Shown here one piece after another: positions 1,220 to 37,100 of a DNA stretch of 64,000 nt. The stretch's first letter is position 1; each line of letters begins with the position of its first letter. Both the position numbers and the translations under genes were made by a program. The stretch is from Gordionus sp. m RMFG-2023 (taxonomy: Eukaryota; Nematomorpha; Gordioida; Chordodea; Parachordodidae): positions 8,967,561 through 9,031,560 of the forward strand of contig NC_088775.1 of NCBI RefSeq assembly GCF_954871325.1, in the 5' to 3' direction. The notes beneath the pieces are model-generated. The model searched no databases. It saw only the letters and a list, made by a program, of their open reading frames with translations, and had not been told where the DNA came from.

Positions 1220-1410
1220 ACATTATATTTAAAATTATTGAGAAATCCTAAATGGTTCGGACAAGATTTTCTTTAGCTGAGCTCTGTTAGGAGGCTAGTA
1301 ATTTGGGCTGAGAAAATAGAGGAACCTCTCAAAACTTTAAATCTTTCATCTGAAGCTGAACAAATAAGTAAATATACTCAGCAGACCATTCAACCACTCC
1401 CTCTATTTAT

Positions 1411-2976: not shown

Positions 2977-3610
2977 ATGTACTTTTTGTGTATTATTCCT
3001 ATAATTATATTTCATCGCACGGTCGAAGCGTATTTAACTCAGTGTAAATATGATGGCGAATTGAGCGGCATGTGCGTAAATACTGACCCCACTATCATTA
3101 AAAACTTTACAACAACATTTAATTCGAAATTAAATAATTTATATATGAGGCATATTAGCACGCGTCGTTTAGAAGAAGATCTCCTGACAAATGTCAGCAC
3201 AAGAAGATTAATTTTCTTTATGAATTCCGTCGAATATATTCATCCCAAGACTTTCGCCATGTGCCAGAAGTTGGAACGCCTAGAACTTTTAAATTCGTTG
3301 AGGCAAAGCGTATTTTTCGATTTCGTGAAATTTTCTACCCCCGCGTTAAAAATCTTAATCATTAGACACAACGACATAATCTCGTTTGTATTCGAGCCAC
3401 TTTCCAGTGATAATACTCCGTTTCTAAGCGGAATCGAAGCTCTCGATTTAAGGTATAATAATTTACGAACCCTAGGCATTGACTTATTATCCAATTTTCC
3501 GTCCTTAAAATCGCTAAAGTTAGCGAGTAATCCATTGGTGTGTCCTTGCGATGATTTAAATAACCCGCGTCAAAACATTATCAAATGGTTATCCGTGGTA
3601 GAGTCCGTCG
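2977..3610 (+). CDS. LRR gene exon 1: signal peptide, LRRs, start of LRRCT cap
   Basis: The ATG at 2977 opens a 249-codon frame that ends at 3726. Codon use is less AT-biased than the flanks, which supports real coding. The repeats and the CPC of the C-terminal cap are clear. The residues after about codon 215 (IHYLFIILFQRIR onwards) no longer look like this family, so I end the exon near 3610 in phase 1. Confidence 0.7.
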
Positions 3611-10107: not shown

Positions 10108-10161
10108 TTATTCGAGGTCTTCTAAGGCTCTTCTGGGTGACCTGGGCATGGGACTTGGTCG
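10108..10161 (-). CDS. Mhc: Mhc exon 37, terminal tailpiece exon (residues 1962-1978)
   Basis: After AAATTAG, a phase-0 frame reads [17 protein letters not shown] and stops. Its GC-rich codons stand out from the AT-rich flanks, and its phase fits exon 36. The two Ser-Pro motifs next to Arg ([10 protein letters not shown]) look like kinase sites, and non-helical tailpieces of invertebrate muscle myosins are known phosphorylation targets. Confidence 0.75.
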   Translation of the reverse strand, partial: RPSPMPRSPRRALEDLE

Positions 10162-13100
10162 CTAATTTATATAGTAAATTTTTTTTAAAAAAAATTGATA
10201 AAATGAGCAATTTTGCGACCATTAAGAACTATCTTTAAGTTGGAGTCCAAATCAATCATTAATTTCAATCACCTCATATTCTTAGATAAACATATAAAAT
10301 CATCTCTTAGCTCGAAAAAAAACAGCCTTTAAAGGTAAGTCACAAGTTCTCCTAACTTTTATCAATTTTGATCTCTTTTGAGAGATTACCAACTTTCAAT
10401 ACCTGACAACAGATTAGATTGAAAAAATAATAATTGTAATAGCCTAAATTATAACCAATGCTCTTTCGCGCTTATGATATCCTTAAATTTATAAACATCT
10501 CAGAAAATCCTTATTCCATGTTTTTTTAAAAAAAATATAAATAATTTTTTACAGCTGATCCTATTCCAGATGGTAGACGGGGTGCTGGGGGGCCTACAGA
10601 TGGGGAACTTCTGTTCTTGGCCCTCATTTTTGTGAGTGCTTGCTCAGAGCTTTCGGCTCTTTCTTCAGCTTCCTCCAATTCGTGTTGTAGTTTGCGGTAT
10701 TTGCCTAAGTTCATGCTGGCTACTTCTTCCTATTCGTATAAATCATTGAATAAAATAGGGTTAGAAGAGGATTCATTCAAGATTCTATTTCAAATAAGAA
10801 GAAGACCTTTATTGTTTGTTCATAAACAAAATCGTGGGCATGAGTGTTTAATTAAGAAATTTGAACTTGTTTGTAAAAAAATATTTAATTTAGTAAATCT
10901 TTTGAGGTTTTGTTGAACTTCGAGACACAATACATTCGTTAAAGAGAATTATAAGTTATTTAAAGTTTAATTTTAATACTAAATAAGACTTGCTGTTAAA
11001 ATAAACTTACCGCTTCTTCGACTTGCCGCTTGTAAATCTTGATCTTTTGTTGCATTTGATCCACCAAATCCTGGAAATGGGTTTGGCTCTTTTTGGCTTC
11101 GTCAATTTCAAATTGCATTTCCTTGACGCGTCTCTCTTTAGCCTTGGACGATTTATCGGCTTCGGCGAATCGCCTATTTGCTGCCTCGGCTTCATTTGTC
11201 AATTCACGAATCTTTTTAATATATTATATGTGCATTTACATTTTTTAAATGTCATATTGATGATCCACATTTATCGATGGCGTCATCTACTTAGAGACAT
11301 GCAAATAGATGAAAATCGTTATTAATCAATAATTATTCGAACCTTAGTTTCCAATTTAACGATCAATTTTTTTCCGCCTTTCAAAACGTTACCCTCAGCT
11401 TCATCCAAACGCGCTTGCATCTCCTTGATTTGAACTTCCATTTGTTTGCGATTTTTTTCGACTTGCAATGAATGGTCTTGTTCTTGCTTCAATTCTTCAG
11501 CCAATCTTTGCACATCCATAAGGCTCTTTAAATATTTGCCAGAGAAAAAAAAACACAAAATATATTTAGGAGTGAAAATAGCGTTTTTAATAGTTTTATT
11601 CGCATAAATTAGATTAATTATTTATAAGGAAAGTCATCATTCTTATTACCTAATGGGTAAAGAGCAACTCCAACCAAATAATTTTAATAAATCAATTAAC
11701 ATAAGACTCATCAACATCAAGATTACGTATAGCTTAAGCCAATTCTATATTTTTACATAATAATTATTACAAATGAAATATTTTTCCCTAAATGGTAAAT
11801 AAGTATAATAAAACCTTTTTAAATTTATCTTCCAAATCTTTTTGATTGTTGATACTCTCGTCAAGATCGGTCTTAAGGGATGCTAATTCGCTTTCCATTT
11901 TCCTCTTTTGACCGTTCAGGGACGTAACTTGGGCAGTGGCGTCATTAGCTCTTTCATTGGTATCGCTGAGTTCCAATTCTAAGCTCCTTCGCACTCTTTC
12001 AGAATTTTCCAAGGCGGATCGGATCTCCTCGATTTCACCCTGAATTTTAAAAATAATAAAAAATAATAAATTATAAATATAAGTTAACTAATTCCAGATT
12101 GATCAATAAAATAACCAAGTTAAGAGTTAGAAACTAAGAATCGAAAATATTGCAACGTATAATATTCCTGCTAATCACAACCTTATATACCTTCGGACAG
12201 TATTCCTGCCAATCATAACCTTATTTTGGACAGAAGACTTTATTAAGAACTAAGAAAACTACCCACAACCGAAACTGGACCCAAAAAGCGGCTTATTAAT
12301 TTAAACAATGTTTCGATATATAAATATATAAATCTTAATTTTTAAAAAAATAAATATTATTCTAAAGTATCTAATTATGAAAATCATCAACTTGACCTGT
12401 CACATCATGGACTCTTAAAAACATAACATCTTACTAGACCATTCTAGATGAACCCCATAAAAAGAAAGACTAATATTACAAGAGACATTTATAAGATTCA
12501 ATTATTCTATTCAAAAATTTTCAAATATTATATAGTCTGATAAAATCCCAACTGCGCCAGTAATAGAAAGGAAGAAGTCTGTGATGATGCTTTAAAATAG
12601 AAGGGAGGAAGAGGGCGAATAAATTAATATAAAGAGGGCGGTAAGGGTGGGTTTCCTAATTTGTAAGTGGAAGGTAGAGAGGGGAGTCGTCACATCATTT
12701 ATAATATATCAAAAAAATTAACTTGAAGTATATTGCAGCGCCTCTCGGACATGTTGTACTGTTCTCTGGCATCGTCTCGTGACCTCTGCTCTTCCTCCAC
12801 TTGGGTTTGAAGCTGTTTAATTTGATCTTGATACTTTTTAATGTTCTTTTGGGCCTCGGCGTTCGCTCTATTGGCTTGGTCGACGGCAATCTCCAATTCG
12901 TTAATGTTGGATTCTAGTTTCTTCTTCATCTTCAGAGCCTCGGCTTTGCCCCTGACCTCCGCTTCCAAGCTGGCTTGCATACTTTCCACCATGCGAGAAT
13001 GATTTTTCCTTGGAGGGGATAATAAATTTTAATAATAAAATAATTATATGATATAAACCAGCTACTACTTTTTTTTAAAAAATTTGAAAAATTAGCGCAA

Positions 13101-16100
13101 ACATGAAAACCTAGTGTTGTCGAATTCTTCGTCCTTTTCTTGCAATCTCCTGTCAATTTCCTGCCTAATCTGAGCTAACTCCAATTGGGTTCTCATTAAT
13201 TTGCCTTCTTCTTGTTCTAGAGCCGATTCGGCTTCTTCGAGCGCGGATTGAATTTCTTCTTTTTCGACTTCGAGTCTCTTGCGGGTTTTATCGAGTTCGT
13301 GAACCGATTTGCCTTCTTCGGACATCGTATCAACTAAATCTTTAATCTCGTCTATAAAGAAAAAAATGAATTATATTATAATACGTGAAAAATTTTCAAA
13401 TCACTAAATCTTTCATATTACTAAAATATCTAATTTTACCAGAAATTTAAATAATTAATTAATCGCAAGATCCGCATAGTAAGTTGTAAACTGTCATAAC
13501 CCCATCCCTTCAGAAATATGTCACTTTGCCCGCCCGTCAATCCTATCCATTTTCTGTCGAAGAACGACAAATGTCCATGATGAAGCTCTGACCATCCTTA
13601 AGGAAAAACATAATATATAAAACCTTGCAAGTTTTTGTTTTCTCTCTTCAGGGAATCGATATGATCATCAAACTCTTCCTGGTGGGTTTTGAGTCTGATT
13701 ACTTCGGTAGAAATATTTCGGTTTTCTTTCTGGGAATTATCTAGTTCGGCTTTGATATCGGCTACTTTTTGCTTCCATTCGGCGATTGTCTTGTCGAAAC
13801 CTTTTTGCTTTTTCTCGAACGATGAAGCGCTATTATTGGCCTTTATTTTGTGGCAAATAAAATTTGAAGTTTTATTTTATATTTTGTCAATTTCATGAAA
13901 GAAAATAAAATTAAAAGAAAGGAGAAAACATATTGAAATGAAATAAGGAGGAAAAGAAAAAATAATTAGATATACCCTTTCAACGTCGATTTGAGCGTCG
14001 TCTAATTCGCTGGTCAGACGTTGCTTAGTTTTTTCCAGGGACGAAATTTTAACTTGGGCTGCTTCGAGGGCTTCCTCTGCTTGTTGCAATCTTTGTTGAA
14101 GCTTTTTCCTATAATTTTATTGTTCGAAAAGGTGTAGGTTGGAATAGAAAAGAAATATGCGAATATAAGCAGATAGTCAAATCTTTTCTTCTATAAAACA
14201 AATTTTTCATAATGACAAGTTATTTTAATTGGGTAATTAAATTAACTTCCCAAAAGAAAATTGTCAATTAAGACGCCCCTTTTCAATCCATCAAATAGTA
14301 CCTTGATTCTTCCAATTCTTCGGATCGTTGTACGGATTCGCCGTCAAATTTGGCTTTAAGAGCGGCATATTCGCTGTTAACTTTAGTGAATTGTCGTTGA
14401 ATTTCGGTCTTGGCTTCTTGTTCCTCGTCAAGTTGATCCTTTAATTGATCTAGATCGTGCTGGGCGTTCCTCAGCTGTGAGCTAAGTTGAGATTTTTCCT
14501 ATTATTTAAAAGAAATTAATAATTTACCCCCATGAATAAATTATATATTTTTTAAAAATTTCCGAAGTAACAACCAATGGAAAGCGCATTTTTACAAAAC
14601 AAAAAAATTCTAAAATTAAAGTAATAGACATTTTACCCTAGATTCTTCTTCCAAGGCATTTCTCAATTCGTTTATCTGGGTGGTGAGCTGAGTTTTGACC
14701 TTGTTGATTTGATTTAGTTGAGATTCCGCTTCCTCCAATTGCTTTTGAAGTTCGGCGTTTTCGTTTTGCAGGCGATTTTTACTGTTAGCTAATTCGTTCA
14801 CGTTTCTAGAACTTTCGTCCAATTTTATCTGACTTTCGGCCAATTGGGCTTCGATAGCTTTAATGGCCTTTTCAGCTTGAGCCTAGTTTTATTTAATTTT
14901 TTTTAAAAATTAGTATAATATTTTAAAAATTTGAGATTTTTATTTTTCTCGGGAATCAATAAGAATATAAATAAAATATAACTTTGGCTTTAACAACGTG
15001 TTCTCCGCCAGATGAAAGATCATCTAATTCGGATTTCATCTGAGCCTTCTCTTTTTCTAGTCTTTATATAAATATATATTTTTTTTTACATATAAATTAA
15101 CATGCTATAAATTGAAATACAATCACAGAGCAATTTTAATAATAAAATTTGAACAATTTTATAGACCACCTTAGTTAAAATGAGATATATATCATACATA
15201 GAATTATGACAGCTAATTTTTTTAATAATGAAGAAATAGTTTATAGTCAATCAATTTATACTTGGCCTTGATTTTTTGCAATTGATCTAGTTGCTCGCCC
15301 ATTTGCGCTACGGCGTCGTTGTGCTTTTTCCTAAGGGCGTTCGTAGTGGCTTCGTGTTGCATGTTCGATTCTTCCAAATCCCTCCTCAATTTTTGGATTT
15401 CGGCTTCTCGCTTCTTGTTCAAATCCATCTGAGCAGCGCTGGCACCTCCCTGCTCTTCTAATCTCTCTGTCAAATCGTCCAGTTCTCTGGCCAACTCGGC
15501 TCTTTGTTTATCCACCTGTTAGGCGAGAAGATAAATATTGTGATCATACACATTGTAAATTTTTAGTATTTCAAGGTGAGTTTCCAGCGTAGTTAACCTT
15601 AGATCGATCATTATGATTTAAGAAAGAAAACTAATCCGTAAAAATAAAATGCGAAATAAGCGAATAACAGGTATAATTTACAAATATACTGAGCGAAATG
15701 TTAAAATTCCTGCGAAGAATTAGCTGTGATTATTCTAGCAATCAATTTCGAGACACCTGAACGAATCGCGCATACTATAAGATGGGACATTATTACTCAT
15801 ATTATAAATTCTAAAAATTATTTATTTGATTAATAAACAATCAATTTAATATTTTATTTTAGGCAATTCGATCTAAAACTAATCTGATGATTCTTAATAA
15901 ACTATTTGATTCATTTAAAAATATCCCTTTTGAATTATAGTGTGGTACCCCCTTTGAATTACATTTATCAGAGACCTGAATAAGCACCCATTTACATATC
16001 TAATTTGGGTTTACTAAACCTGCCCGGATTATAAATCTATTGATTTTGACCCGGTCCTGGTTTTATCCTGCCCGGCACGTCGGGTCTCAGGTGTAAGAAT

Positions 16101-19100
16101 TTAAAAATAAATTAATCAATAAATAAATACCTTAGAACGAGCTTGGCGTTCAGCTTCGAGTTCTTCTTCCAATTCTTCAATGCGACTCTGTAATAATTTG
16201 AAACGATAAAAAAATCCTATTATAGTACCAGATAAAATGGAATTTTCGTAGTCACCACTTTAAACGCCAAAATATGATGTTATTAATAATTATAAAGGAA
16301 CCAGAAAATGGGGTTCCACGTGACCAAAAATTTGGTTATAATTTTGTAAAAAAAAATTTTTGAAGTTTGATAACAAAAATTGTATTTGGTGGCAAATTAT
16401 CAATTTTACTATTATGCGAAAATGTGAGACAAGTTTGTAATAAATCAATTTTTCTTTAAAATATACGATATACTTCTAACATCGAACGTTCAGTTCTTGG
16501 CAATATTTGTCCTAATTCAACTTCAGCACTCTCCCTGATGATCCTACGACTCCTGGTGGAGAGGCTGGGTGATGGGGAAGTATACATGTAATCCCTACCA
16601 GGTATTCTTAAATGGTCCAACCTAGGATTATATTCTGAGCTGAAATAAGAAGAATAAGGGGAATAAGGGTCCGGGTTAACATAATGGTAATCCCGGGATG
16701 GTGCAAAGGATCTAGTCGAATCCTTGCCATTGGTGCGATGGGATGCCCTTTCCGCAGTCACTTGTGGGGTGGGTTTGTGGATTTGGTGAGTGATAACAGG
16801 GGCAGCTTTAGCCTTTACATCCATAACTTGAACTCCGTTAGTCGTGGCACTGATAGATGCCAATGGGCTATCATCAGAATTAACTCCAGACGATTTTTTC
16901 TCGTTGGTCCCCCTTTTACCGTTACCGTTTTTAGTCCCCACAAGTACTGGCGTTACCTCTTGAATATCGTAAGATTCGATTTTAGCTTGGTCCATATTTT
17001 AAATTACGGGTATGAGATTGGGGCGAATATAGGATTATGGTAGATGATGATTATATATATAATTTGTAAATGCGAGATAGCCTATATAATAATACAAGCT
17101 TTTCAGGAAAAAGAATGCTTCAATCCCTTATTTATTTTAATGCAAGAATAGAATGCTAGGAAGGTTTATATTTATAGAAGACGAAAAAGTGTTTTCCAGA
17201 TATTTACAAGTATATACATAATATTATAATATTGCGGGTGCGCGTATCCTAAAAAATATGCGGCCGATTTATAAAAGTTATATTATTTCAAGAAAATATT
17301 TTAATTTTTCGCAATGTTTTATTTTAAATTTTTGGTTAATTTGAATTATTGAATTATTTAAAATTTATATTTAAAAAAAATATATCTAATAATGAGGATA
17401 TAAAGGTAAAAAAAATAATAAACTATATAATTTTTAAGATTTTCATAATTTTTTGTGTTTTAAAATTGGTTTAAAATTAAAAACTAAATTGATAAAAATT
17501 TTTTTCTTCTTTCAAATTAACAATTTACGTTCATGAAGATGGCTTGGCCACATGGCAAAATATGATCAAAAATTTTTTATATTTTTGTAAAAAAAAAAAT
17601 TTTTTTTTTGAAAACCATTTGCTTTACTCAATTCATTAATTTTAAACCAATAATCCAAAATAAAGATAATAAAATTTCAGAAAGAAAACAACAGAATCTA
17701 TAAAAAACATTTGTTCAATCCCGTTTTCATAAGCATTTCAATTATTGATAATAAGAGAAAATTGTGTTTAATGTGTTCTTGAAGATTTTATGTTTTTGTG
17801 CTACCTTCTCTTGCTTTATAAGGAAAAGTTTGCATCTTATTAATGCGAGATTTATAATATAATAATGTAATTGTTTTTCAAAAAATATTATATATAAATT
17901 ATTATATAAATAAATATTAAAAAAATTATATTGTACAAAATAACTTTAAAAATTCAAAATAAAATCGAATTAAATATCTTTTCATTCTTATCAAGTGTGA
18001 TAAGAAGATTTATAAAGGTTTCCACTTTCGACTTGGTTTAGGTTTAAGATTAATATATTTCCTGAAAAAAAATTCATTTATCTAAAATGCTTTAAAATTT
18101 ATAAATTTTTGTTGGATCCTCTTGCTAACAAGTATTAATAGCTTACTAGTAAGTGGAAAGGTCCCAAATAATTTACTGTAATATTTCACTATTTTCAAAT
18201 TATACTATGTCCTCCTTACAAAAATCGTTAAGATACTATGTGGAACAATCCTAAATTCATATTAAATTTAGATTGCCCAATAATGAAATTTATTTAACGT
18301 TTATAGTAAATGTAAATTTACATCAATTAACGAATACGATGATAAATTTAATTTTTAAAGTATTAAATATAATTAGAATGAAAAAATTGATAGCCTGCCT
18401 TATCAATAGAATGTCCGAGAAAATTTCCCATCTTTCAATTAAAAATAAATACCAGCACATGTGTAACATCCAAGGTTATTACGTATTATATGATTTTTTG
18501 AAAGCAAATCGAAATTTAATTTTTTTTCAAAATATGAGATATTTCCACAAATTTTTTTTTTTTTAAAAAAATTAAGGATAAAAAAAAAGATTGAAGCCGC
18601 AAATTACAATATTATTGTATAAAGATAATTCAACCAATGGCGTTACTAGGGTTAAAAGCTCGACCCTCGCCAAAATTTTGGAGAGCCCTTTCACAAAAAA
18701 GAAAGAATTGGGTTTATAAAATTATTCAGATTTGGAGCACTCATTCAAACCACGGCCAAACTAAAAAAACAAGTAAATCTAAGTGATACCGATAAAATTC
18801 TTAGAGTAAAATAAATATAAAGTATTTGTGTAGACCTGTAATTCCTTGATTTTCCTTTGTAGTTGCCCAACCATGTTTTGTTCGTCTTCTAAACGGGTTT
18901 GGAAATTTGCTATATCTTTCTCTTTCCTCTTCAGGTTTTCTTCCAATTCTTTCTTCGCTATATCCAAATCTTGCGCTTGTTCCTAGTTATACAAATATAT
19001 ATAGCAGGGGCTTCAAGGATTCAAGAGCTATGTTTCATTGACTCTGGTTTAACTACATTTGTTATGGAAATAATTTCGATCTTATATTTTTTTCCCACCT

Positions 19101-22100
19101 TCGAAAGCGCGTATTTTCAAAATATACCTAACTCTATTCACTAAAAATAAATCAGATCTGATAAACCCCATGTGACTATAAATTGTTTGAATAGTATTAT
19201 TAAGTTTTTCAATTCCAATAGCAAGGTAAAAAAAAAAGGTTAAAATTTAGGGAAATCCTTTTACCTGGGACAATTTTAAGTCTTGCTCCAATTTCTTCTT
19301 GCTTTTCTCGAGGTCGGCTCTAATTTTTTTCTCATGTTCTAAGCTGTCCTCCAACTCGTCCAGAGTTTGTTCCAATTTAGCTTTGACCTTATTCAAGTGG
19401 TTAACCTTATCCTCCGTCGCGTTCAAATCGTCCTGAGTCTTTTTAAGGGTCTCGTCCAAACTTTTCTTCTCCTTGCTCACCTTGGAAATCAATTCGTCCT
19501 GTTTGGTCATCTCGTCCTGCAATTGTCTGATCTGATTTTCTCGGGATTGTTTCTCCTGTTCCGTTTTTTGGAGCGATAATTCCAGATCTTGGATATCCTA
19601 TTAGGGAGAAATTTAATTCAAAAACATCTGACAAATGGATATCGATGTACAAACTCTAGCGAGGTATTTTTTTTAAAAAAAGGGGGTTAAAAGATATTTG
19701 GGAGGAGGGGAGGGGGCAGTAAGAAAAATATAATAAAAAAATGAGAATTGGTAGTATTATATTATGATATTACATCACAGCTGAAAGAATGTCAGAAGAA
19801 TATATAAGAGGCAGTATGTAAAAGAAAGATGGGGAGGAACTCATGTTGCTTCCATAGTATGGGAAGTGTTTGTGGTTTAGATTTGAATGGGAAAAAGATG
19901 TTGAAAATTGTAAAACTAAGTGGAATTTGTAAAATGAATAAAGGTTAACCTTTTTCAGTTCGACCATTTCTTGTTCGGTTTTCCTTTTGGCGGATGAAAG
20001 GGTGGCGTTCTGTTCTTCCTCCTCTGCCAGTCTATCGTTCAAATCCGTCATTTGTGATTCCAATTCCACTTTTTGTTTGATGAGATTTTCGGCCTTTTCT
20101 TCCAAATCGTTCGTGTTTTCCTTCTCGGCCTCGAGTTGCAACATTAAATCGTTTTTCTCTTGGGTCAAGTGGGTCGTTTTATTTTCTAGATCTTTCCTTA
20201 ATGCTGTTTCTTTATCGAAATCTTCTTTCAACTTATCGAATTCGTCTTTCAATTTTTTCATATCTTCTTCTTGCCTGGCGACGCTCAACATAGGTTTGAC
20301 CTAGGTGAAAATAAATTTATTATTAAAAAGTATATTTTTTTATGTGAGTTTTTTTAAAATCAAACAATATACATTTATTAAGAGTTAAGTTATAAAAAAA
20401 AATTCATAAATACCACAATCTGAATTCGTGTGTTTTAAAAAAAACAAAGAGAATTTGGAACCTAAACTAAAAATATGGTTCTTTTTACAGTTCGAGGTTC
20501 TGTTTCCGGTTCTTAAATTTGACCCGATTCCAAAATTCAGTGGTTTTTCTTTCTCAAATCTAAAAGAAGGACATAAATAATAAAATACTTTAGTGTACAA
20601 CTTCCACCATAACCAATTGCGCATTAATAACCATTTTCGGATGTTCCTTTGAATGATGACAAGAGCCGTCCTCTGTTCCTTCAATTTCTTGAAGCGTTTC
20701 TTCATGAGATTAGCCCTGATCCATGCCTTTCATTTATTCATTTATTTATTTTATAAAATACAATATACAAATATATATTTAAAAATTGGCATCAATTCAT
20801 TTTCAAAATTCTTTAATCTCATTGGGATTAAGCAGGCCTATAAAAAATATGTTCCTCAATGAATATATATCAGATGACAAAATAGGAAACCTGGAAGTAG
20901 GTAATGATCTTGCCTATCCTTTCGTCTCTCATATCTTCTAGTTGACCCAAAATACCGGCCTTAAAGAATATCTTGGTATGGCCCATTTTGTATTCGTTAG
21001 GTTCCAACTGGCATTCGTTGATAATTTTTCCGGTAATTTCTTTATTGTCAGCGAACCCTTCTTTGGGCACGGCCTGTGGAGCCAAAATGGTATACCTATA
21101 TGAAGGAAAAAGATTTGAGCGAAGTCATCATTTGGAAATTTGTAATTATGAAGAATTTTGAGATCGGTAAAAGATGGTCGCCAAACCCGAATCCCGACCC
21201 AAATATGTCAAAAAATATGGGGGCTCGACTCAATCCGGTTGTTTTGCCGAATACTAAATTAATAAAGGAAATGAAATTACCTTTGCTTGAAATCGGCATA
21301 CATTAAACGATTAGGGAAACCTTTCCTACAAATCCTGATACCTTCCAATACGCCATTGCAAGTCAATTGATTCATGACCAATTCTGCGTCCAACTCACCT
21401 TAAAATAAAAATGATCGTTTTTTGTAGTTTCTCAATATATCCCCCCCCCCCCCACACACATCAGTAATAAAGAACAAATTGTGTTAATAGAGCAAGAAAC
21501 ATGTAGTTAATATGGAAAAAAAACCGGTTATTTAGTAAGGGAATGAATTTAACCTTTAAAAAACCCCCAATAAAACCAAACTTAAAATAAAAAACTGTTT
21601 ATTAATGTTTTTATAGTTAAAAAAAAATTTCGCGAAAACAAAAAATGGACTATATACCGGGTCCTTTGTGTTCATTGGGAATGATGCATCTTACGAAATG
21701 TGGGTGAGTATTTTTCAAAGTCGTCATAAGTTTATTCAATTGTTCCTAAATTTTAAAAATTAAAAGTTTGGGTTTTTCGTTTTTATATGGTTTTCTATTT
21801 CCTTTTATTTAAAAAAAAAATACTAAGAAACAAGTAGAGCATTATTTTACCTTGTAAAGTACCGAAATAGTTTGAAAGCTAGATCCTTTTCCTTTCTTTC
21901 CGGAACTCTTTTCGTCTAATCATTTTAATTAATTAAAATTTTATTAAATTATTTTTCATTATTAGTTTAAAAAAACCGTCAGCAGAAGCTCTGTCCTTCC
22001 ATAGATCGGCCAAGAGATGATTTGTAGATTTGGAGAAAACTGTCAAGACCGATTCATTCAGAGGATCCTTATTTTTATCCAACCAATTGTCGACGTTGTA

Positions 22101-25100
22101 AGGCACCTTTGATTAATAAAAAAACTCATAAAAGTTATCATTTTAAAAGAAAACACGTGATGTAGCAACACCTAGAATATAATTGCCCTTGGCCGCCAAA
22201 AGTATAAGCACGTTTCTGCCTATGATTCATTATATCACATATATTTAGGTTTAATTAACAAAGTTATTTCATTGATGGGTTAAAAATATACCACCATTTA
22301 ATATTTTTATTATAATAATGTTTACAAAGTTCGTAACAAGACTACGAACCTTTAAGTTTTGCGGGCTCGGGTTTTTCCGGTATTTAGTTAAAGATTTTAT
22401 AAAGGTTTTGTTCCATTTTGGGTTTTTTTTTGAAGAAATTCATATAGGTTTCAGTTCGGTTTAGAATTTATAACGGTTCGTTCCTTAAAAAAATTAATCA
22501 TAAACCATACCTATTAATCATTAATCTTAGAGAAAAATCTTTTAATTTATATTTTTAATTCCTTATTTAATTTAACCTTGAAGATTATTTCTTATCTAAC
22601 TAGTAAATTGCCTAATTTCTATTAAATTGGTAAAAGCAATAAACTTGTTATTGATTGAAAATAATGGCGATAAGAGTTCGGTTCGCTCTTTTATATTTTC
22701 TTTATAACGGTTCGGTTACGGTTACAAAAAATTATAACGGTTTGTTCCTGTAGATTCGGTTTAAAGTCTGGTTCGCGTAATCATGTATACGTATTATCTT
22801 ATGAACTCGTCTGAAATTTGATAATGGTTCAACTCAAGGAATGTTCACCTGAGGGAAATTTTTCAATTGGATGAAATATATTTAAAATTAAATATGTATC
22901 AGGAGTGGCATTAAAGGTTAGGGAGGTATGGGTTAAGTAATTTAAAAGTTTGAGAGATATGAGTCAAGGTTTCGATTGGGTTATATAACCTGTCAAATCT
23001 GACAGGTCATGTGATTATAAAATAGATGAATAGAAATTTAAATATATCAGTTGTTATAATGGCAATTTCCTCGAATTGAACCATAATCCAGAAATTTAAT
23101 AGGTCAGGTTATTCCACCAAATGCTAAAATACATTTCCAATAAAATCAAATTTTTAAAATTAAAAAAAAACTCCTTAAAATAAATATGATTTAAAAGTTT
23201 TGTTGAGCCCATTTTTCAAATTTAAAAAGATCTGATTTTGTCTAAAAGGTTATTCCAGTATTATACACAATAAAATTTGTATAATTTCGGCTATTGATAA
23301 TTCAGAAAACTGCCTAATTTGACCAAATTTTGATTTTCAATCAAATTCCTATAAATTATTGTCTTGATATATTGGACAACTGTTTAGGTTGGACAGAAAT
23401 CTTGATCTCAACGGTGCCTAAATTAGACAGGGTTTACTAAATGTGTAGAATACCTATTCTATAAAATTTCAGACAATTTGGTCAAATACTTTTGAGCCAT
23501 TTTGTATTTATCTACTGGCAAAACAATTATCCTAGGAGAATTATTACTAAATTTCTTTAATTCGATTACAACAATACACATTAAATAATAACTATATTAT
23601 CATCTGGGGTTACAGAATTTATCTATTTAGGACATCAAATTAAAGGAATGGAGGTGAAACCTCTTGAGAAAAATTTAAAAAATATAACAAATATGAATCA
23701 GCCAACCAATAAAGCTGAGTTATAATCATTTTTGGGTATGATAAATTATTATCATCGTTTTGTGGAGAAATTTGCAAAAGTGGCATCTCTATTGTATGAT
23801 TTATTAAAAAATGGTGTTCATTTTGAGTGGAATATTGAACACCAAAATGCTTTTGATATTTCCTTGATTATTAAAATGTTCTGTCACAACTTCTTGCAAT
23901 GCATTTTTTTTAAATAGGAAGCAGGATTTTTTATTATATACATTTTAATTTTTGTTATAGATTGCAGATGGAGCATTCATATCGGAAAGAGATGATTTTA
24001 TAAAGTATATCTAATATATAACCTTTTGATCTCAATTGTAAACTAAAACGCATATAGAACATTTTAATAATCAAGCTACTAAAATATATTTGTTTTATTT
24101 TACGGTGCCAGCGTAATGCTTGATTTCCATGTGCGCCTCACGCGATGATTTTTGCGCTAACTTAGGTTTACCCAAGCAAGGTGATTTTCCCAAATGAGTG
24201 TCCATAACTTTCTGCAAGAATGTCTTATCGGTAGCTTTTGGCACGATACATTCCTCTTCCAAGATGGAAAGAATACCCATGGGCTAAATATTTATAATCA
24301 AGTATAATACATGAATGAGCATTATTTAAATGCGAAATAATTCAAATCTTTATATTAGACTTTTTAAGGCTATTTCATGATATTATTATTAGCTATAAAT
24401 TGTTAAGTTAGAAAAAAAATCAATAATTATAAATGTTGATTATAACCTTTTCGATCAAATCGATACAAGCTTGTAAATCAAGTCCAAAGTCTATGAATTC
24501 CCAGTCGATTCCTTCTCTCTTATATTCCTCTTGTTCCAGGATGAACATGTGATGATTAAAAAATTGCTGCAATTTTTCGTTGGTGAAATTGATGCACAAT
24601 TGTTCGAAGCTGTTATACTTGCATATTTTATTTAAAATATATTTTAGTTTATTAAATTTTATTATCTATAAAGGAAAATAATATATATACCTTAAACTAG
24701 AGATCTGCAAAGTTAGGCCCGGCTCGGGCCTAATTCTATTTAAAATAATTGAGTTCGGGCCAGGCAGGGCCTAATATTTTTAAAAAAATTTTGGGCCGGG
24801 TCGGGTCGGAGTTTGGAAATTTTATTAAATATATCTAAATTTATCAATTTTATATTGAATTTTTTATGTAAAATAAAAATTTTTGATTTAATTTATTGAA
24901 ACTTAACGCTATATAACATATGTCTTTTATTTTAAGTAATTATAAAAATTAATTTATCCGGCAAAACTTTTTAAAAAAAAATTTCGGGCCGGGCCGGGCT
25001 TGAAAAATTATGCCCGATGCAGATCACTACCTTAAACATTGTTTTTAATTTTTAAAAACCCCCAAATCTATACCTTATGTTTTAGTCATTAAGAAAAATA

Positions 25101-28100
25101 AATCTATCTATACCGCGAATACTTGTATCTACGATACAATATGCAAGATCCTTTTGTATCTTCTACTCAATATCTTTTTGATATTTTTAATAAGATACTA
25201 CTATCTATATCTAAGATCGATTTTTCATAAAGAATATATATCTAGATTCTTTTGGACCTGCCCAACTCTGTCTATAATCGTGTAAATTGTTAGAACTAAC
25301 TTCAAAAATTTCGAAACCGGCTATATCCAAGACTCCTATAAAGAATTGACGTTTGGCTTTGGTGTCCAGCGTTTTGTTGACTCTAGCTACCAACCATTTA
25401 AACATTCTGTCGTAAGTTGCCTTCGATAATGATCCGATAGCGTAAGTGACCTAAAAGAATTATCAGATTTACAATAAGCTTGATTTACTAATATAATAAG
25501 GATACCTGTTGTAGATTTTGGCCCTTAGCTACGTATTCGCTTCCGACTTTGATTCTAGGTTTCAGGATATTTTTAAAGAATTCTGCATCATTGATGCCCA
25601 TTAATTTGGCGGCCTTTTCTCCGGCTATCATTATTAATATGAAAAAAAGGAATGGTCATTTAATACAGATGATAATGTTGTGGTATAAAAATTATAATTA
25701 GTTAGTTAATTTAACTTTATAATCGAAGTAACTGTAATATGAAGCATTAAATCATGAAGCATTAAATCCCCTTATTATATACCTCTTGAGTTAAGATAGC
25801 ACTATATTAATTCACTCTCCCAATGAAAAATAGTGTTAAGGATGGAGTTAATTAATAACCAAAATTTTAATTACAATGTAAATTTCTATAGAGAGTTAAA
25901 CGAACATGCTGTTTTTTTTATTGCTGAAATTTTTGTAAAATTAATCTTGAATCGAATTTTAATTTTATAAATCTAATTTGTAAAGTTGTATTAGAAATTA
26001 GCATTTCAAAAGTAAAAATATTTTTGATACAAATTTATATTGGAGATTTTTTTTAAAATTTTATATGAAATATAATTCTCAATAAATATTAAGTGAGTCA
26101 AAAAGCGAAGACTTAAAAACCTGGAACGAGTTAAAAAGTGCGTTATTATTTTTATATAAATCCTTAAAAATAATCATCAATCCTATGATAATTATAATAT
26201 GATTTTTCAAAAAAAAAAATAATTAAAGTTTCATACGATCTGTTCCATCAGTCTCAGCTTGTTCTTCTCTGGGTCTTTGTTTGAATTTCATGTTTCCCAT
26301 ATGCATTATAGCTCCAGTGAGTTTATAAATGTTCAATTTTTCTTGCGGCTCAAAGCCCAAAATGTTAAATGCTTCCTGTTTTTTTTTGTAAAAAAAATGG
26401 TTCAAACTATTTTTAACGTTAATAGTTTAGGGCAATAATATTTAAATTTCGCGTTAATTCATTCGCGCTTTATCGGATATATTATTCATTTATATTTATT
26501 ATTGATCTTTTTTCCTCATTTCAATTCATTCGTATTTTGGATATATTTTCTCAGTTTTAATCATTATATTTCGTCATCTTATTATTTTTTATAACCACAA
26601 TCAGCCATATCAGGCATACTTGCGAATCCTAATTCGGTTGTACTAAGCCTCAATCAAGCTTTTATTTTTTCAGACCCATAACATGACTCTATTTCCGTCG
26701 TTTAATCTGTGTCGTATTTGATTAATTTCGCGTTCGTTATTCATTAATTTTTTTCTTCGCTTCTGGATATATTTAGCTTTAGTTTTAGATATACTCAATT
26801 AGCACATTGATTCATTTTTTTTTAAATATTTACTAGCGCCATTTACTCAATTATTTGCTTTATACATCAGTAATATTACGCATTAGCTTTTGCTTTATTC
26901 ACGATCGAGCCAAGATATTATACATTTAACAAATGATGGTGTATTTTATGTTCATGAACCAATCATTAACAGGTACCATCAATCAAGACTTTCGCCTCTC
27001 TTTCAGAAGCATACCGCTTCCCAGCCCATTTACAGAACTCCCTTCAATTCATGCTTCTAATATCATTCAGACTTTTCTCAACATCAAAAAACTTGACATC
27101 ATATCAATAATTCCCAAAGGCGCTAGGATACAAGTCTCCAAGTCTCTCTCTCTCTCTGATAGTATCTCCTCTTTACCGTAAAACTTTAACGTGACGGAAT
27201 GGTTTAAATTCATATTTCTTTGGTTATCAGGCGACCTACCAAATCCTCAAGAATTTCCTGCAACGTTTCTCCTGATCTTTATAACAAAAAAACGTTCTCG
27301 TCAAGCTATGCATATTTCAATAAAATTGAAATTAGTCTCTAATTATGATTCATTAGCTCACCACACTCTGAGGAGACCAAAATAAAACTCCTTCCAAAAT
27401 ATCTTTCTTCCACTAACACCAATCACTCAATATAGTTTGTGGAGGCAGACCTATCTTTACAGAAGCCTAACAAAGATATCAAACCAATAACCATTTGTTC
27501 AACATTCCGCTGTCATGTCACAAAAGTTTTACATCCAGATTAAATATGAGGCCGCTCACTTTTTAACCCCTTTATAATTAAGGGGTAGAGTTTATGGAGG
27601 ATGTGAGGCGACTGTACATCTCATGCCTTTACTTGAAGAGCAATACTAAAAATTGAATTTGCTAATGCCTAAAGCATCCTCTCCCATAACTCACTTGCAA
27701 TCAGAGCGCATATCATTCCAATGCTACCCCAAATTCCTATATTCTTCTTACCAATTTTCTTCAATTTTGGAATTCAACTCTCAGGAAGGCACCCAACAAG
27801 GTAATCAACTAGAATCCCTTATATATAGTCGCGGAATCAATAAAATAATTCAAGCCATTAATTCAAAATTCCCACTGCACGTCTAGTACATAGACGATAG
27901 AATCAATAGTAGATCTCAATTGGAAATCAATAAGGTCGGACATTATCAAAAAAATGGTATGTGCCGTTAGTCTCATGATCAAAATCTCAAATTACAAGGA
28001 GTTAACACATCTAGAATCCCCTGTAAGCGGTTGGATTCACTCAATCTGCCTTCCTCCACTCTACTTTTGATATCCTCCTTAAGATTGGTAACCTTCTTTA

Positions 28101-31100
28101 CTTATTACCCTCACATAAATCATTCTTCCTCCTAAAAAACTTTTTAAACATTCTACGCATCCTTTATCCTCTCCGTTCAACTCCTATTTTTAAATTTCTT
28201 ATCCCTCTTAACATTTATTAAAGGTAACTGTTAAGCTTCCTTACCCACCAAAAGTGGTGATTTAGAGATAAGATACCTTTATTGATGATGCTATCTTGTT
28301 ATGGAAGACACGATATATTTAAAATATCTGTAACCAAAATTTATCTTATTGTAACCCGAAGGACCCCTGGTCTGGACCACCCGGATCTAATGTTGAATAA
28401 AATACACTTTTAATTTTATATTAAAGATAATAATTTTATCTTTCTATTTGTTTTATTTATATATACATCTGTTAATTTCATTTCTTCTTTGTCGTCGACT
28501 CCCTCAATCGAAGTTTTACCCTGAGATGAGAATGCGTAGTCCTTTGGATTATCGGAAAGGAAAAGTTGTTCTTTATAAATATTTACATTTTCATTTAAAA
28601 TAATGTGAGACATCAATAAAAATCATATATTAAAATTGCTTTCGTCCAAAAAAAAGGACCCATAGAGTTCACTCTTATGGAATCCTCATATAAAAAATTC
28701 GGGATTCGATTCTAAAATAAAAAAAAATTGTAAATCTCTCGCTTATATTTCCTGGAAAAATTTTTAAAGTAATATTGAAAATAATATCAATAGATGCTAG
28801 GGAAGTAAACACTCGTATTTAAATTGAGGTTTTTTTTTAAAGTAAGTGTAGAAATCATAGAAAAATTATTTTAAAAAAACTCAAAGTTCTTACTCCCCCC
28901 CCCCTAGCATCTATCAATATTAATTTATAGGGAATATAAGTTAAATTCCCAATTTTTTTTTATGTTTTTGGGGATTTCGAATGGAAATCGAAATTTAGCA
29001 AAAAAAAACCACCTTTTAATCCAGAGATCGCTCCTGACATGATTTGATAGAAGATATGATATGATCTCTCAGCGGCCTGTTGAAATATGACACGGGATTT
29101 TTCCAATAGATCTTTAATATTATTAAACAAATTTTAAAAGAGAGTTATATAAATGGCAATAAGCCTGCAAAAATATAGGATATATCTGTTTTTTTTTAAA
29201 AAAAGAATCAGCTTACATGATTCTATATCAGCACCAGCTAATTTTCCGGAAGCTCCAAAATGAATTCTGATAAATTTCCCCTAAAAATATAAGTATATAT
29301 ATTATAAATCATTGAAATTAATATATTAAGTAATTTAAATGTATCGTCGATTTTGGGGCTAATATATATATTAAAACCAACAAAGAATAAAAGATATCAC
29401 CGATTGTCAGGATTATATAGTAAACAGGTAAATTCCACTTACAAATCTCGAAGAGTTATCATTACGAATAGTTTTAGCGTTACCAAATGCTTCCAACACT
29501 GGATTAGCTTGAATAATCTGATCTTCCAAAGAAGCTTTCTAAGTTTTAAGTCCACAAATAGGAGACAGAAAAAAGGAAAAAAAATTGAATAAAGTATTTA
29601 ATCAAATCCAATGAGTAGCATAGAGTAGGAGTGTAGAGTAGATGCGAGTAGATTCTATTTGCACGGCATTTAAGAACATCACAACATTGGAATAAATTTA
29701 TATAAAAAATCAACATAATACTATTCATTTATCGACAAGATATATATAAAAATACATAAGAGTCCTTGCTTTCAAGGAATGTATCAGATATATCGATCCA
29801 AAAAAACACGAACTTGAGTGAGCCCTCTTTAAAACACGAAATTGTTTACATGAAGAAAAAAAACATAGAATCTTGATTTGATACTATATGTACATAACTA
29901 GTGTTGTCTAAAACCTAGATTTTACCCATTTTTTTAAAAAGCAGCTAAATCAAAATTTTAGCAAATAAATATCACCTAAACCTCGAGATTCCTTAAATTT
30001 TTTTATAGCTCAAATCTTGATTGATAGCTTTTAAAAATGGGCGAAATCGAGGTTTCTAACAAACAATATGTACAGGTTAGATTTGACAGAAACAGAAATG
30101 GTAGAGAGGACATTAATTAAGCATTTAATTTATAAGTTTCAACATTAAATTGCCTGTATACAACATTTTAGATTTTGCCAATTATACAACAATTATATGA
30201 TTTTGAATCGATGGTTTTCTATGGAATTAGAATAAGCCCATTTTCTAATCTGCATGATTGCTACAATCTGGTTTTAAATAAGAATGAATAAAAACTACGA
30301 CAAATTAGACAAACACTTGATTTCTAATGACAACATATTATTTCAACATTTATTATCCTAAAAAATAATTATATTCGCTTACGAAACGCGAAGAGTTGTC
30401 GTTTCTTATGGTCTTAGCGTTTCCAAACGCTTCCAAAACTGGATTGGCTTGGATAACTTGATCTTCTAAGGTTCCCTGTAAAGATTTATTTGATATACGC
30501 ACATTATTTTTTAAACACATTTGGCACAATATTTTTCGAGCATTATTATATGTATACTATTTAAGTATTACACTTATACTGTAAACATGGTTTAATGGAT
30601 TTTGGATGGAAATGCAATGAATTGGTGATTTACAATATTTGTTTATTTATGCGTGTGTGTGGACGGTGTATATAGTTGATATAAATTTTAATTTAAGGTA
30701 AATATTTATAAAAATGCACCAGAACTCATATCAATAAATTACAAATCATTAATATCATATTTCATGGAATTTAATAAATTTGTAAATCGTTTATAAAATG
30801 TATACCAAAATTATATAGCATATTATTATAAAATCTAATCGTATTATAATACTTTCATTATATAAAAAAAATTCGTTGGACATTTATTTTGTTTCAAATT
30901 TTGAGCATAGAATTAACCATGATTAAGTAAATTACAATTATACACGTTTATCTGATATATTTTTTAACATTTTAAATATTTATTTTTTTTAAATTTTAGA
31001 GGGGCGCTTTCTGCCATCATCTCTAGTAAAAATTAAGATATATTATTTAACATCGATCTTTCTTAAAATTGTAAAAAAAAAGTATTAAAAATTAATCGGG

Positions 31101-34100
31101 TTTAGAATATGAGATGGTTCGTATGTCGCCACTAGGTAATATAATATATATTTCCAATAGGATTAAAATCAGGACTGGAGATAGGCTAGGCCTAATGTTA
31201 TCATCATCTGGCCATTTTTTTAAATAGTATTTTTCGAAAATTATGGGGTGCCGTCTCTGGTTAATTCTTTTAAACAAAGTTTAATTAAAACCTAAGCAAA
31301 AATCTTTTTAAAAAAGTAATCTTGAAAAACCATCATTAAAAAATAACATGTCTTCCCAATCGCTGATTCTTCAATGTATATGAATGCTAGCTCACTGACC
31401 TAATTTGATTTCATCTTTACAAAAATAAAGCAACTATAGTTAATGAATTCGTGTTTAAAGAGTCTGATCTTGAAATTAACTTGCCTAAGATACCCAGTAA
31501 ATCTTACATCTTGCATAATCCGCGACAAAAGGTCAAATAATATATCTCCCTTAAGGGTAGCTTGTTTTTCTACACATGTTTCTGTGTATTACCACGGCCA
31601 AGGGTAGGATATGTGTAGTTTTCTTCACTTTTAGTTGATTAATTAATTAATAATAGGAATCTGTGTCTCTATTTATATTCATATCAATATTTATTCTTTT
31701 GTTGTTATAATTTACCATGATTAGCGTCTCCTCCCTCACACCAAATATAAAACTAGATTTAAATTTATTTTAGATGTAATATGAATAATGAAAAAAAATG
31801 TATCATAAAATTAAAGGGTTATAATTTATTTAATAAATGAGTTGAGAGACAGTCTTGCGATTAAGGACTAACTTTTATGAAATGTAAGACATTAAATATT
31901 TTTAGGTTAAGTTGATTTAAAATAAATTTATAATTTAAAATAATTGTTTTTATCGTTAAACTTCGAAATTTTATGTGTTGGGGGGTGGTGGGGGGCTTAT
32001 TGAAAAATAATTCGATGCGGTTAAAGAATTATGAATTTGCTTAGTTTTATTCAAATTATAAGTATAATTTTAATGGGTAATATTTGTTGACGTAAGCACT
32101 TGATGATTAAAACATTACAAATAATATATGTTAGCATCTATCGGCATTTTCATTGACATATAAACATACACATCTCAAGAATATCCATTTTATTTAACAA
32201 TCTGTGCAAGATTCGAAAAAATATTTGAAGAAATTGAGTAAACAGCAAGTATAGATAGCACAGATTATATATAAGATGCTTTATAGATAAATTATAAAAA
32301 ATTTGAAACTTGCACTTCACCCTCTTTGACTGGATTCATGCCTATTATAGCGTAATAAGTTAAGACTTTTTTGGTGTTTTCTGTCTTACCGGCACCTGAC
32401 TCTCCACTATTAAAATATAAATGGTGAAATAACATTTTAATGATGTAATAATAAATAACCCCTTTTTTCAAAAAAGAAAGGTTGAAATTATAAAATCATT
32501 TCGATTATCCTTTAATTATTTATTAGATTCTTTTATATCATTTGACGAGGAATTTTTAACAGATAACAAGGGTGCCTATAAGGCCTCGTATTTTGGGGAG
32601 GGGATACATTGAATTTTTTGCTTTTTTTGAGGGAGCCTTCAAGATTCACATTACATTTCTGCTCGGAGTATTGACTAAGGGAATATGTCGCGAATGTAGA
32701 CGAAAATAACATAACATAATATTCAACAAATGTTCAATTTTGCATTATAACTAAAATATTTACGATATGAATACAAATAAAAAAAAATTTTTTTTAAATG
32801 AACGCGATCGGAAGATGAATTTCATTGATGTAAATCTCTACATGTAAAAAAAAATGAATATATACAAAGACTCAATTTTTTAACAAGTTTTAAGTGGAGG
32901 ACTTACAGCTCCATATGTGATTCCAGTATTGGTGGCTGTAGATGCAGCAGTGATCGCAAAATATTGAATGACCTTTTTGGTATTTTCTGTTTTGCCGGCA
33001 CCAGATTCGCCTCTACGTAAGATTCAAACATATAATAAGAGGGACAAATTATACATATACAAGCATGGAATTAGTTTCTTTTTATGATCATTATATTTAC
33101 CTACAAATATATAAACTATTTTCATACCCTTTTTTCGAAGTTGTTTACAAAATAAATTTTCTTGAAAATTAGCGTTCTGAGTCAAAATAAATAACATTCA
33201 TTTTATAAGCCAAAATTCATTTCTTCTTTTATGCCATTTTAAGTATTACATAGACAACATTATCGTAATTATAAACATGTAAAACAACAAAATAAACACA
33301 TACTAAATTGGTTATAATTTTACACGGTCCTAATTTGCATATTAAATATACTTTTGAAGACGGCATTGTGAACATATATTTAACTATTAACATATTTAAT
33401 ATATAATTTTACAAACTGCGCAGTTTTTGCGAACATTGGGTATAACAAAAATAAACATTTATAAAAGACAGCATTAGAGTCAAACATATATTTGTATAAA
33501 TAATTGTGTAAGACGGACATATGATATAATAAGACAAATGACCTATTTTATGAGCAATGAGATTAATTCTAGCCTAGACTAAAGATCCATTTTTTTTAAA
33601 GTGTATGAAGTTAGATTCAATGTGTTTTTTTTCAGTCTAACGCCTCATCTATAGTAAATGTGATTTGTTAAGCGGTACGGTATTTGGCTCTATCGAAACC
33701 ACCGCTAACTCTTCACAGCGATAATAATTTTCGAAAATATGCATGCGTTTTTTTTTCAAATTTTAAAAATCTGTGCGGGAAATGTATTTCAGCATATTTA
33801 GAATACATACCTTAATAAATTTCAGAAAATTTTGCGGATAACATTTTGGCCATTTATAATTTGTTATAAAAAAATTTATAGAAAAACGAATAATAAATTT
33901 TACTAAGTTCAAAAATTTCTGGGCAAAATCTTCTAAAAATCATAGAATAAGACTTATTTTGCACAATCTGATTAGAATATATTTCCAGCAAATTTATTTT
34001 TTATATTACAAAAAAACTGTACTTAAAAAAAGATTTAGTTGAAAAAAACACATTGAAGTTAATACATATATACATCCATTGAAGTCATAATGCTTGAAGT

Positions 34101-37100
34101 TTAGGATTTCAAATATACGTACTTTTTCAATGTATGTATACTTTGAGAATTTTTATAAAGAATGAATCTCATTAGAGGCTAGTATCAATGTCATTGGTTG
34201 ATATCTATTTTCTGTAAAGCTGATATTACATAATTTAATTAAGACTGAAGACAAATTATTTACTAATGTTGTAAATAGGTCAAGCCTTTAGGCTAATATA
34301 GAAAAACTAAAGTAATACAGTATTTATTCATTCTATCATGTACAAAATAACAAAATCTACAAAGGGAATCATGGCATGCACCAATTTTATTAAAATATAT
34401 CCTTTAATTAAAAAGTTTGTTCTCGGTTTAAATTAATTTTGACACTTGGTAAAATGAAGGACCTTTAGTGTTGTTAAATTGCTGGATTTGAGTCGATTTT
34501 TAAAAAATGCTACCTCAATATTTTAGCCAGATGAATATTGACAAAGCCTCGATATTTTGTTAATAGATGCTCAAACCTTTATGTTATATGATTCAAATCT
34601 TGATAAGGCTTGCATAATATTTTTCTAGATAAAATATTAAGTTAGCTGTTTTTAAAAATCGGCTCAAAACGAGCCGTTTACTAAAACTAGTTAGAGACAA
34701 ACATATATAGAAAGACAAACATACACATAATAAGAAGACAACATTTATAACACTTACGGCGGTAAAATGGGACACACCGGGGTCGGTTATATGCTTATTA
34801 GCAGCTACTATGGCAAAATACTGGATAACCTTTTTTGTGTTTTCCGTTTTACCTGCTCCACTTTCTCCACTATTTCAAAAAATTAAATAATAATAATGTT
34901 GTGATTTTTACGAAAAGTTAATATAGATATATTAAAGAAATTTATGTCTTTTCAAAAATAAATACAAGTCTCACTATCCTTTATACCCTTACCCTTCATT
35001 AATAGTTAGCGCGAATTCGCGGCGAAGTGCATAAAAATACAACATATTTTCTATACTTCACCGCTAATTCATGTAAATGTGAATGCAGGGTTATTCGATT
35101 ATATAATTAAGAATAGTAAATTTAGAAATTCGTTGAATATATTCGTTTTTGAATATGGCTTAGTATTATTTTTAAATTTAAGATGTTAATTTTTTATAAT
35201 TTTTTAATTGAAAATTGAACTTACGTGATCAATATAGATTGATTTTCTCTGTCTGTATTATGAGAATGTTTTTTTTAAAAATAGATATTAATATAAATTT
35301 ATTATGATTATATATTCCCGAGACCTGCAGGCCCTGTCCTAAGCCCGGCTCGACCTGACCCGTGTAACTTTATTAAATATACACTGGCCGGGCCATGCAG
35401 ATGATACTTCTGCTGGTCTCTGATATATTCTATTGATGGTTCAAATTCAAGAGTAAATTATATAGTTTAAAGAAATCTACGAAAAATTAATCATACTTGA
35501 TAACATATTGGTATAGGCGTCATCCGAAATGGAGAAAACGTGAGGAGGTACCTCGGACTTTCTCTTACCTTTGAACATCTGCACGACTTCTGGGGTATAT
35601 ATAGGTAGTCTTTTGTAGGGATTAATAGCCACGCAAAACAATCCAGAATAAGTCTATATTTAAGATACAAATTTGTATTTACAATTATATTGGTTAAATG
35701 TTATGCGCGATTAATTTTACGTAAATAATCCAAATGAAATATCGTTGTTGTAAATTATGCAAGACACTGGCGTCGTTCAAAAAGGTTAAACAGGACATAT
35801 CATCACATTTTTCGAATTTTCCTGGGTTAACTTGTTCTGCTTGATCTTTATTTATAGTCATTTCCTATATAATAATTTTAAAAAATTTAGCCAATTTTAA
35901 AACAATAAAAATAAAATTTTCTGGCGTAAAAATTTAAAAAAAAGTGTAATACTGTAAAATCTGAATTGCATTTAAGTGTAAACCTGCATTCACAGTTAGC
36001 GCTGTAAACATCGCCATGCAAGTTATGCTGCATCCTAACTAAAGAGTGCATTAGAAATTGGGCGTTTCAATGTTAAAATTGATCATCTTACAAGCGTTGC
36101 AATTGAGTGTAAGATAATATATAAATTATTGAGCATTAACAATGAACATAATAAAGGTAATTTCAAAATCAATCGTTACAAGATATAGATCAAAATATTT
36201 ATATTTCCCTACAGCAAGCATCTTGGTGCTTAACTATTCCAATTAGGACATAAAATTGCTTGTACGCTTAATCGCAAGAACACTTCACTGACTTAGTCAA
36301 GGAAAACGTCATTGAATTTGGAGGGAGGTAGTTATAAAGGCGCTATCGTCATTTGTAGAGTGGGGAAGGGGGGGGGGGGGTAGGAGGTAATTTTTAAAAT
36401 TTCTTTTTCATTTTGCTTTGATTTAGCATTTGAGTACTTCTCAACTTGTGAATTTTGGGTAATGTTATATAGTGTTGGCCATTATAAAAATTTGCCAACG
36501 ACTAAATTTATATGATTAAAAGACCCATTAGTGCGCTTCCGATATTCTATATATCATACCTCAATAGCACTGAAATATCTAGTTGTCTTTGGAAAAAAAA
36601 ACCAGGTCTTTACTGGATTCAAACTAAGATCTATATGGTAAATGATATATGCACTAACCGATTAGGCGACAGATGCTGCTCGAAATCAATTTATGGCAAA
36701 ATTGCCTGAAATTCCTAATGTAGTATACTCTTGACCAGCTGGATTATATTTCTGGTTAAAAAAAGGGAAAAAATATAAGTAAATAAGAAATGAAAAGTAG
36801 GTTGAAAGAATTAAAAGGTAGACAACAAATGAGAAAAATCAACGTTATTATTTTATAAATAGGTTGAATATACATTAACTGCAAGATAAATCAACTTGAT
36901 TTTCATTAAAAAAATCCAAAAATATGAAAATAAAATTCATAAAACAAATTGAGAGATAGTTTGTACCTTTAGCTAGTTATTTTATTAGTTTGTGTTCGTA
37001 TGTTAGCTAGATTGAAGTGTGTGTGTGTATAACTAGCATATCGTCGCCAGAAAATTAAATTGTTCCATATGAGGGGCGTCATTAACCTTTACAATCTCAG

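Follow-up and report, generated by a model that had tools for sequence, protein, structure and literature searches.

The myosin heavy chain locus

The window, which is the whole 64,000-nt stretch analysed (contig NC_088775.1 of the hairworm Gordionus sp. m RMFG-2023, positions 8,967,561 to 9,031,560), harbors a muscle myosin heavy chain (Mhc) gene located on the minus strand and running from 43660 to 10108. The IQ and motor part of the gene occupies 20385..43660, with the first coding exon at 43660, and was recognised from Pfam matches on some exons and from the frame listing. Seven Mhc frames were tried against Pfam and gave matches to Myosin_N, Myosin_head (in three frames, with a sub-threshold match in one), IQ (below the cut-off) and Myosin_tail_1, with one frame giving no match. 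In the first coding exon (43376-43660, minus strand) about 20 N-terminal residues precede the part matching the PDB muscle myosins.

Three candidate alternative P-loop/loop-1 exons with differing loop-1 sequences are located at about 34.8, 33.0 and 32.4 kb (32292-34874, minus strand), and two near-identical exons with the LEDQ motif are found at about 30.4 and 29.5 kb (frames 30353-30556 and 29413-29538, minus strand). Judging by their sequences, the P-loop/loop-1 exons and the LEDQ exons look like mutually exclusive sets. Nematodes are reported in PMC3912159 to have lost mutually exclusive Mhc exons.

The motor and IQ part is followed by two S2 exons (19265..20300, minus strand), the first of which starts with VKPMLSV, as identified by eye, and both of which are absent from the rod-only product proposed below. 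Exon 23 (18836..18982, minus strand) is the last rod exon limited to full-length myosin; it ends in KELQ in phase 0, with ATCAAGGAATTACAG at 18836, and is followed by intron 23 (18835..16188), which is 2,648 nt long. Exon 24, in the numbering of the earlier note, is the first rod exon shared by both products in the spliced model (16131..16187, minus strand); it codes for 19 residues starting with SRIEEL, the second of which aligns with residue 1114 of human MYH7. The remaining 13 rod exons common to both products, identified by their junctions and by matches to PDB myosins, lie at 10108..15515 (minus strand), with the stop codon at 10108. When the 14 exons from exon 24 to the end were joined, every junction proved to be GT/AG and in phase.

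In the PDB the rod is matched best by tarantula myosin, followed by those of Drosophila and Lethocerus, vertebrate myosins being found as well; the list is without a full-length mollusc or nematode rod, so the order of matches alone places nothing. The rod ends in a Ser/Pro-rich C-terminal tailpiece (10108-10729, minus strand) lying partly in its own last exon, and this tailpiece is a possible alternative C-terminus and a possible carrier of phosphorylation sites.

A long open frame in intron 23

Within intron 23, on the strand of Mhc, an ATG at 16995 with an in-frame TAA directly 5′ of it opens a frame of exactly 174 codons up to a GT at 16473. The stretch 16474..16995 (minus strand) is the candidate internal first coding exon and would code for the unique N-terminal domain of a rod-only product, as suggested by the open frame, the null models, the GC profile and a single genome match. 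The frame and its position in a rod intron had been pointed out in the earlier note and are borne out here, the coordinates being 16995-16474 for the frame and 18835..16188 for the intron. If not spliced, the frame stops at a TAA at 16458-16456 and amounts to 180 codons from stop to stop.

In a third-order Markov model of the Mhc rod introns (2,648 nt, six frames), only one of 3,000 draws had 180 or more codons in a row without a stop, and in 3 of 5,000 sequences matched to the exon's own composition such a run reached at least 179 codons. The candidate frame is the longest stop-free run on both strands of the Mhc span (10108-43660, 33.5 kb), the second longest being one of 176 codons located around an Mhc exon.

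The GC content of the candidate exon is 0.450 (GC3 0.41), compared to 0.438 for the Mhc rod (GC3 0.45), whose individual exons range from 0.39 to 0.54. Intron 23 has a GC content of 0.228 upstream of the candidate exon and of 0.248 from the donor to exon 24; the first two 60-nt windows past the donor (from 16460 and 16400) show 0.22 and 0.18, followed by values of 0.28-0.32 until exon 24. The codon choice of the frame is above the intron-like level (none of 5,000 null sets was as good) and below the Mhc-like one (none of 5,000 sets was as low), and its synonymous part is indistinguishable from random codons at 45% GC, as 1,503 of 5,000 random sets were as good. The coding signal of the candidate exon therefore consists of frame length, GC content and borders, and codon preference is not part of it. 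Of the non-AT-biased codons claimed earlier, what stands is the GC and GC3 content, and a synonymous preference beyond that expected at the same GC does not.

A chance or decaying open frame without a product is an improbable explanation. It would be in line with a codon choice indistinguishable from random at equal GC and with 3 of 5,000 composition-matched sequences reaching such a length, and the frame is known here from genomic sequence. Chance leaves unexplained a GC-rich island of 522 nt which extends from an ATG to a phase-matched donor in an intron with a GC content of 0.23. The candidate exon has one match in the whole genome and hence is not a repeat; transposon or repeat origin is ruled out by this single match.

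Splice sites and reading phase

The proposed intron joining the candidate exon to exon 24 (16188..16473, minus strand) has the donor GAA/GTATAT at 16473 and the acceptor TTATTACAG/AGT (TTACAG/AGT) at 16187, both in phase 0. Phase 0 alone keeps exons 24-25 open, the other two phases leading to a stop at the third or the 34th full codon, so the earlier statement that the frame ends at a donor in the exact phase needed for exon 24 holds.

The donor matrix was built from 14 donors of the Mhc gene, the candidate donor being outside the training set. The candidate donor scores 5.4, with the real Mhc donors, each left out in turn, scoring from -0.4 to 8.8, and ranks second among the 83 GTs scored in intron 23. 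Among the 12 GTs of the frame that are in phase it scores highest, the runner-up scoring 5.0. The top GT of the intron is located at 16919 (ACG/GTAAAA, score 8.9 vs 5.4) inside the frame, is in phase 1 and leads to a stop in exon 24. If used, the GT at 16919 (minus strand) could yield a non-coding or unproductive variant. The acceptor at 16187 ranks first among 90 AGs, which is partly built in, since it is Mhc's own acceptor and was included in the training of the matrix. As read by eye, there is a Leu at position -2 both in the SMLE/SRIEEL junction and in the full-length KELQ junction with exon 24, which would allow the heptad spacing to continue into the rod.

The frame might instead be a nested gene of its own, 180 codons long and without introns, which stops at the TAA at 16458-16456 and is not spliced to Mhc. 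Such a gene would be consistent with the frame being open past the donor to MLEVYRIF* and with the good context of the start codon; the phase match would then be a coincidence. The best in-phase donor is found 15 nt ahead of the stop codon of the frame and the GC content drops at that very donor, which argues against a nested gene. Neither AATAAA nor ATTAAA was found in the 271 nt between the stop codon and exon 24, an absence which is weak evidence on its own, as 55.6% of 1,000 random intron pieces of 271 nt contain one of these signals. Taken together, these points make a nested gene decidedly improbable.

An in-frame cassette, with exon 23 joined to a part of the frame (for example, through an acceptor at 16812) and the latter joined to exon 24, would lengthen the rod of full-length myosin by 113 residues, and is the most improbable of these explanations. 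By arithmetic, the AG preceding 16812 is 183 nt away from the ATG, in phase 0, and its score of 3.8 falls among those of real acceptors (-1.1 to 10.6). Codons 1-61, which are likewise open and GC-rich (0.426 vs 0.463 for codons 62-174), would be left unexplained, however, and a proline-rich and probably disordered insert would enter the coiled coil. Two better-scoring acceptors lead to stops, 17081 after 25 codons and 16634 after 8 codons (the latter read by eye). The reading preferred here is that the candidate exon is joined at its 3′ end to exon 24 and is the first coding exon of its transcript.

The upstream region and the 5′ end

The stretch 16996..17218 (minus strand) is the probable 5′ leader and promoter-proximal region of the candidate exon. 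The nearest ATG upstream of the start codon is at 17219, 224 nt away, and an ATG-free stretch of such length is found at 3.7% of 3,618 (overlapping) positions in the Mhc introns. The start codon at 16995 has an A at -3 and a G at +4. Upstream of the candidate exon, TATAAATA is present at 17176; words of the TATAWAWR type are frequent, with five of them in 18835-16474, and a TATA box is too common here to count as evidence. Promoter evidence for the candidate internal start is weak.

The same rod-only product could also have another 5′ end, with either the principal leader of Mhc or a trans-spliced one joined to an acceptor at 17081, in which case no internal promoter would be needed. The AG before 17081 ranks third of the 90 in intron 23, and a splice there would leave an 86-nt leader ahead of the start codon. 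On the other hand, a splice at 17081 is not required by TATAAATA at 17176 or by the ATG-free stretch that reaches back to 17219; the argument is weak either way. We regard this origin of the 5′ end as unlikely, and its share lies inside the probability given below to the product, which covers any 5′ end.

The predicted rod-only protein

The spliced model with the internal first exon gives a protein of 1,023 residues and 117.4 kDa, consisting of 174 unique and 849 rod residues, in agreement with the composition proposed in the earlier note. The calculated pI is 9.1 for the unique part and 5.25 for the rod. The 12-residue stretch flagged earlier corresponds to residues 140-151 of the unique part, near the rod, where Ser-Pro and Arg-rich patches are located. 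The unique part contains six S/T-P, five S/T-x-R/K and four R/K-x-x-S/T sites, such kinase motifs being too common to count as evidence. Pfam and PDB searches with the 174 unique residues gave no matches. In an AlphaFold2 single-sequence model, which is weak (mean pLDDT 55, pTM 0.16), the unique part is mostly non-helical, with helices at residues 124-129, 147-164 and 168-173.

It is likely that the hairworm Mhc gene has an internal first exon which is coding and is joined to exon 24, and this would result in a catchin-like rod-only protein. The candidate is best read as an internal first exon through which an ecdysozoan worm would make a headless myosin similar to catchin. According to this model, a second Mhc transcript would begin, most likely at an internal start, with the 174-codon exon in intron 23 of the S2 region, which would be spliced in phase 0 to exon 24 and give a protein of about 117 kDa devoid of the motor and the light-chain sites. 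The protein would dimerise through its rod and co-assemble with myosin on the surface of thick filaments, where its basic and probably disordered Ser/Thr/Pro/Tyr-rich head would be displayed in place of motors. As has been proposed for molluscan catchin, this head could dilute the motors and, if controlled by a kinase, attach to actin or to adjacent myosin. By analogy with catchin, the predicted worm protein is most naturally read as a filler and regulator of thick filaments that lacks a motor.

Other features of the window and the genome

The window also contains a 399-codon frame (53648-54847, minus strand) matching DUF4371, with a zinc-finger match below the cut-off, which we take to be a likely relative of hAT-type transposases. 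A 267-codon frame (2923-3726, plus strand) codes for leucine-rich repeats, with LRR_8 over the cut-off.

When the genome (287.06 Mb, 267 contigs) was searched for COX1, 48 matches were obtained, and these were taken for nuclear copies of mitochondrial DNA; COX1-region DNA is present in many copies, for example at the loci L002, L003 and L005 (G000:C5, C1 and C1). At L002, a frame adjoining the best COX1 copy (721-1395, minus strand) matches Pfam NADHdh with an E-value of 1e-32 and is a mitochondrial-type nad1. Inside the NADHdh-matched stretch of this frame lies a perfect inverted repeat of 100 nt with a gap of 32 nt, and the frame also has an overlapping 38-nt perfect inverted repeat, one arm of which lies mostly before the matched stretch. 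The 100-nt inverted repeat is kept at both L002 and L003, with 100% and 98% complementarity, respectively. Perfect inverted repeats in mitochondrial genes, including nad1 with a major and a shorter overlapping one, are described in PMC6649704 as a hallmark of Nematomorpha, with similar but shorter inverted repeats noted there for a few other animals, and the nad1 repeats at L002 show the pattern described for Nematomorpha.

Comparison with known rod-only myosins

In the literature examined, only molluscs are credited with rod-only muscle myosins that have a long, spliced N-terminal exon. No headless muscle myosin from Nematomorpha was found in the open-licence full-text literature, among the matches listed, and a search of open-licence literature on nematomorph muscle found nothing. 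A clear genomic case in Nematomorpha would make it testable whether catchin is older than molluscs, as well as what a headless myosin does in a worm with only longitudinal body-wall muscle. The body wall of hairworms has longitudinal muscle only. It may be tentatively suggested, as a rather doubtful idea, that a catchin-type headless myosin is ancestral to protostomes or has re-evolved in hairworms, acting as a phospho-regulated actin- or myosin-binding 'anti-motor' of thick filaments and arising from the same rod intron as molluscan catchin. If that were true, catch-like force holding could not be regarded as an invention of molluscs.

The Drosophila myosin rod protein (MRP) resembles the candidate in being a rod-only product from an internal Mhc start in an ecdysozoan. 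According to PMC3912159, the rod of MRP starts with the first exon that follows the light-chain region, and the N-termini of MRP lack conservation even between close relatives. In the same paper, homologues of the Drosophila rod protein are considered impossible to predict reliably unless mRNA is at hand, a caution that extends to the hairworm candidate. The hairworm exon starting with VKPMLSV, which by eye is the counterpart of the MRP start exon, lies 277 residues upstream of the candidate junction. Unlike in MRP, the hairworm rod would be entered that much further on and through a separate spliced exon, so equivalence to MRP is ruled out by position, and the equal grouping of the candidate with Drosophila myorod/MRP in the earlier note is not supported. 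If the offset figure in PMC3912159 counts the rod only, the hairworm junction fits the position of catchin and not that of MRP. The same paper describes Mhc8 of Lottia gigantea as a rod-only myosin starting where the rod of catchin starts, in which it is similar to the candidate; unlike the latter, Mhc8 is a separate gene in a tandem array and has no catchin N-terminal exon.

According to PMC12040844, PMC5963113 and PMC3912159, the catchin/myorod set includes proteins from Mytilus, scallop, Crassostrea, Aplysia and Biomphalaria as well as Lottia Mhc6, and the catchin exon is reported from four molluscs besides scallop in PMC3912159. PMC12040844 and PMC4410989 describe mussel myorod as a thick-filament protein equal in abundance to myosin, with a phosphorylation site, Thr141, close to the end of the unique part. 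Peptides from its N-terminus cause actin to aggregate, an effect that is absent when phosphorylation is mimicked, and myorod raises the ATPase activity of myosin once phosphorylated and co-assembled with it.

At the sequence level the hairworm candidate is similar to catchin/myorod in being located inside a muscle Mhc gene, with a long unique N-terminal exon upstream of the shared rod exons, on the same strand and in the same phase. Its predicted length, 174 + 849 residues, can be set against the 156 unique and 830 rod residues given for mussel catchin/myorod in PMC12040844, and its predicted mass, 117 kDa, against the 112.8 kDa listed for Mytilus catchin in PMC5302490. Measured from SRIEEL to their C-terminal end, the muscle myosins in the PDB comprise 823 (MYH7, Myosin-4), 838 (Drosophila), 840 (tarantula) and 851 (Lethocerus) residues, with 804-832 left from the next exon boundary, 19 residues on. 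The 830-residue rod of catchin is therefore compatible with the SRIEEL boundary, the counterpart of the ELQ/ARIEEL join suggested for catchin in the earlier note, and also with the next one, the comparison being by length alone. By this measure the rod of the hairworm product would begin in the same S2 region as that of catchin. The N-terminus of catchin is described as non-helical, and the hairworm unique part is mostly non-helical in the weak AlphaFold2 model.

The hairworm product, known here from the gene, is predicted to be catchin-like by anatomy. Calling it an undescribed system, as was done earlier, is too strong: the rod-only architecture is already known from catchin and is of a known kind in molluscs, not a new class of system. 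The candidate differs from catchin in phylum, Nematomorpha (Ecdysozoa) instead of Mollusca.
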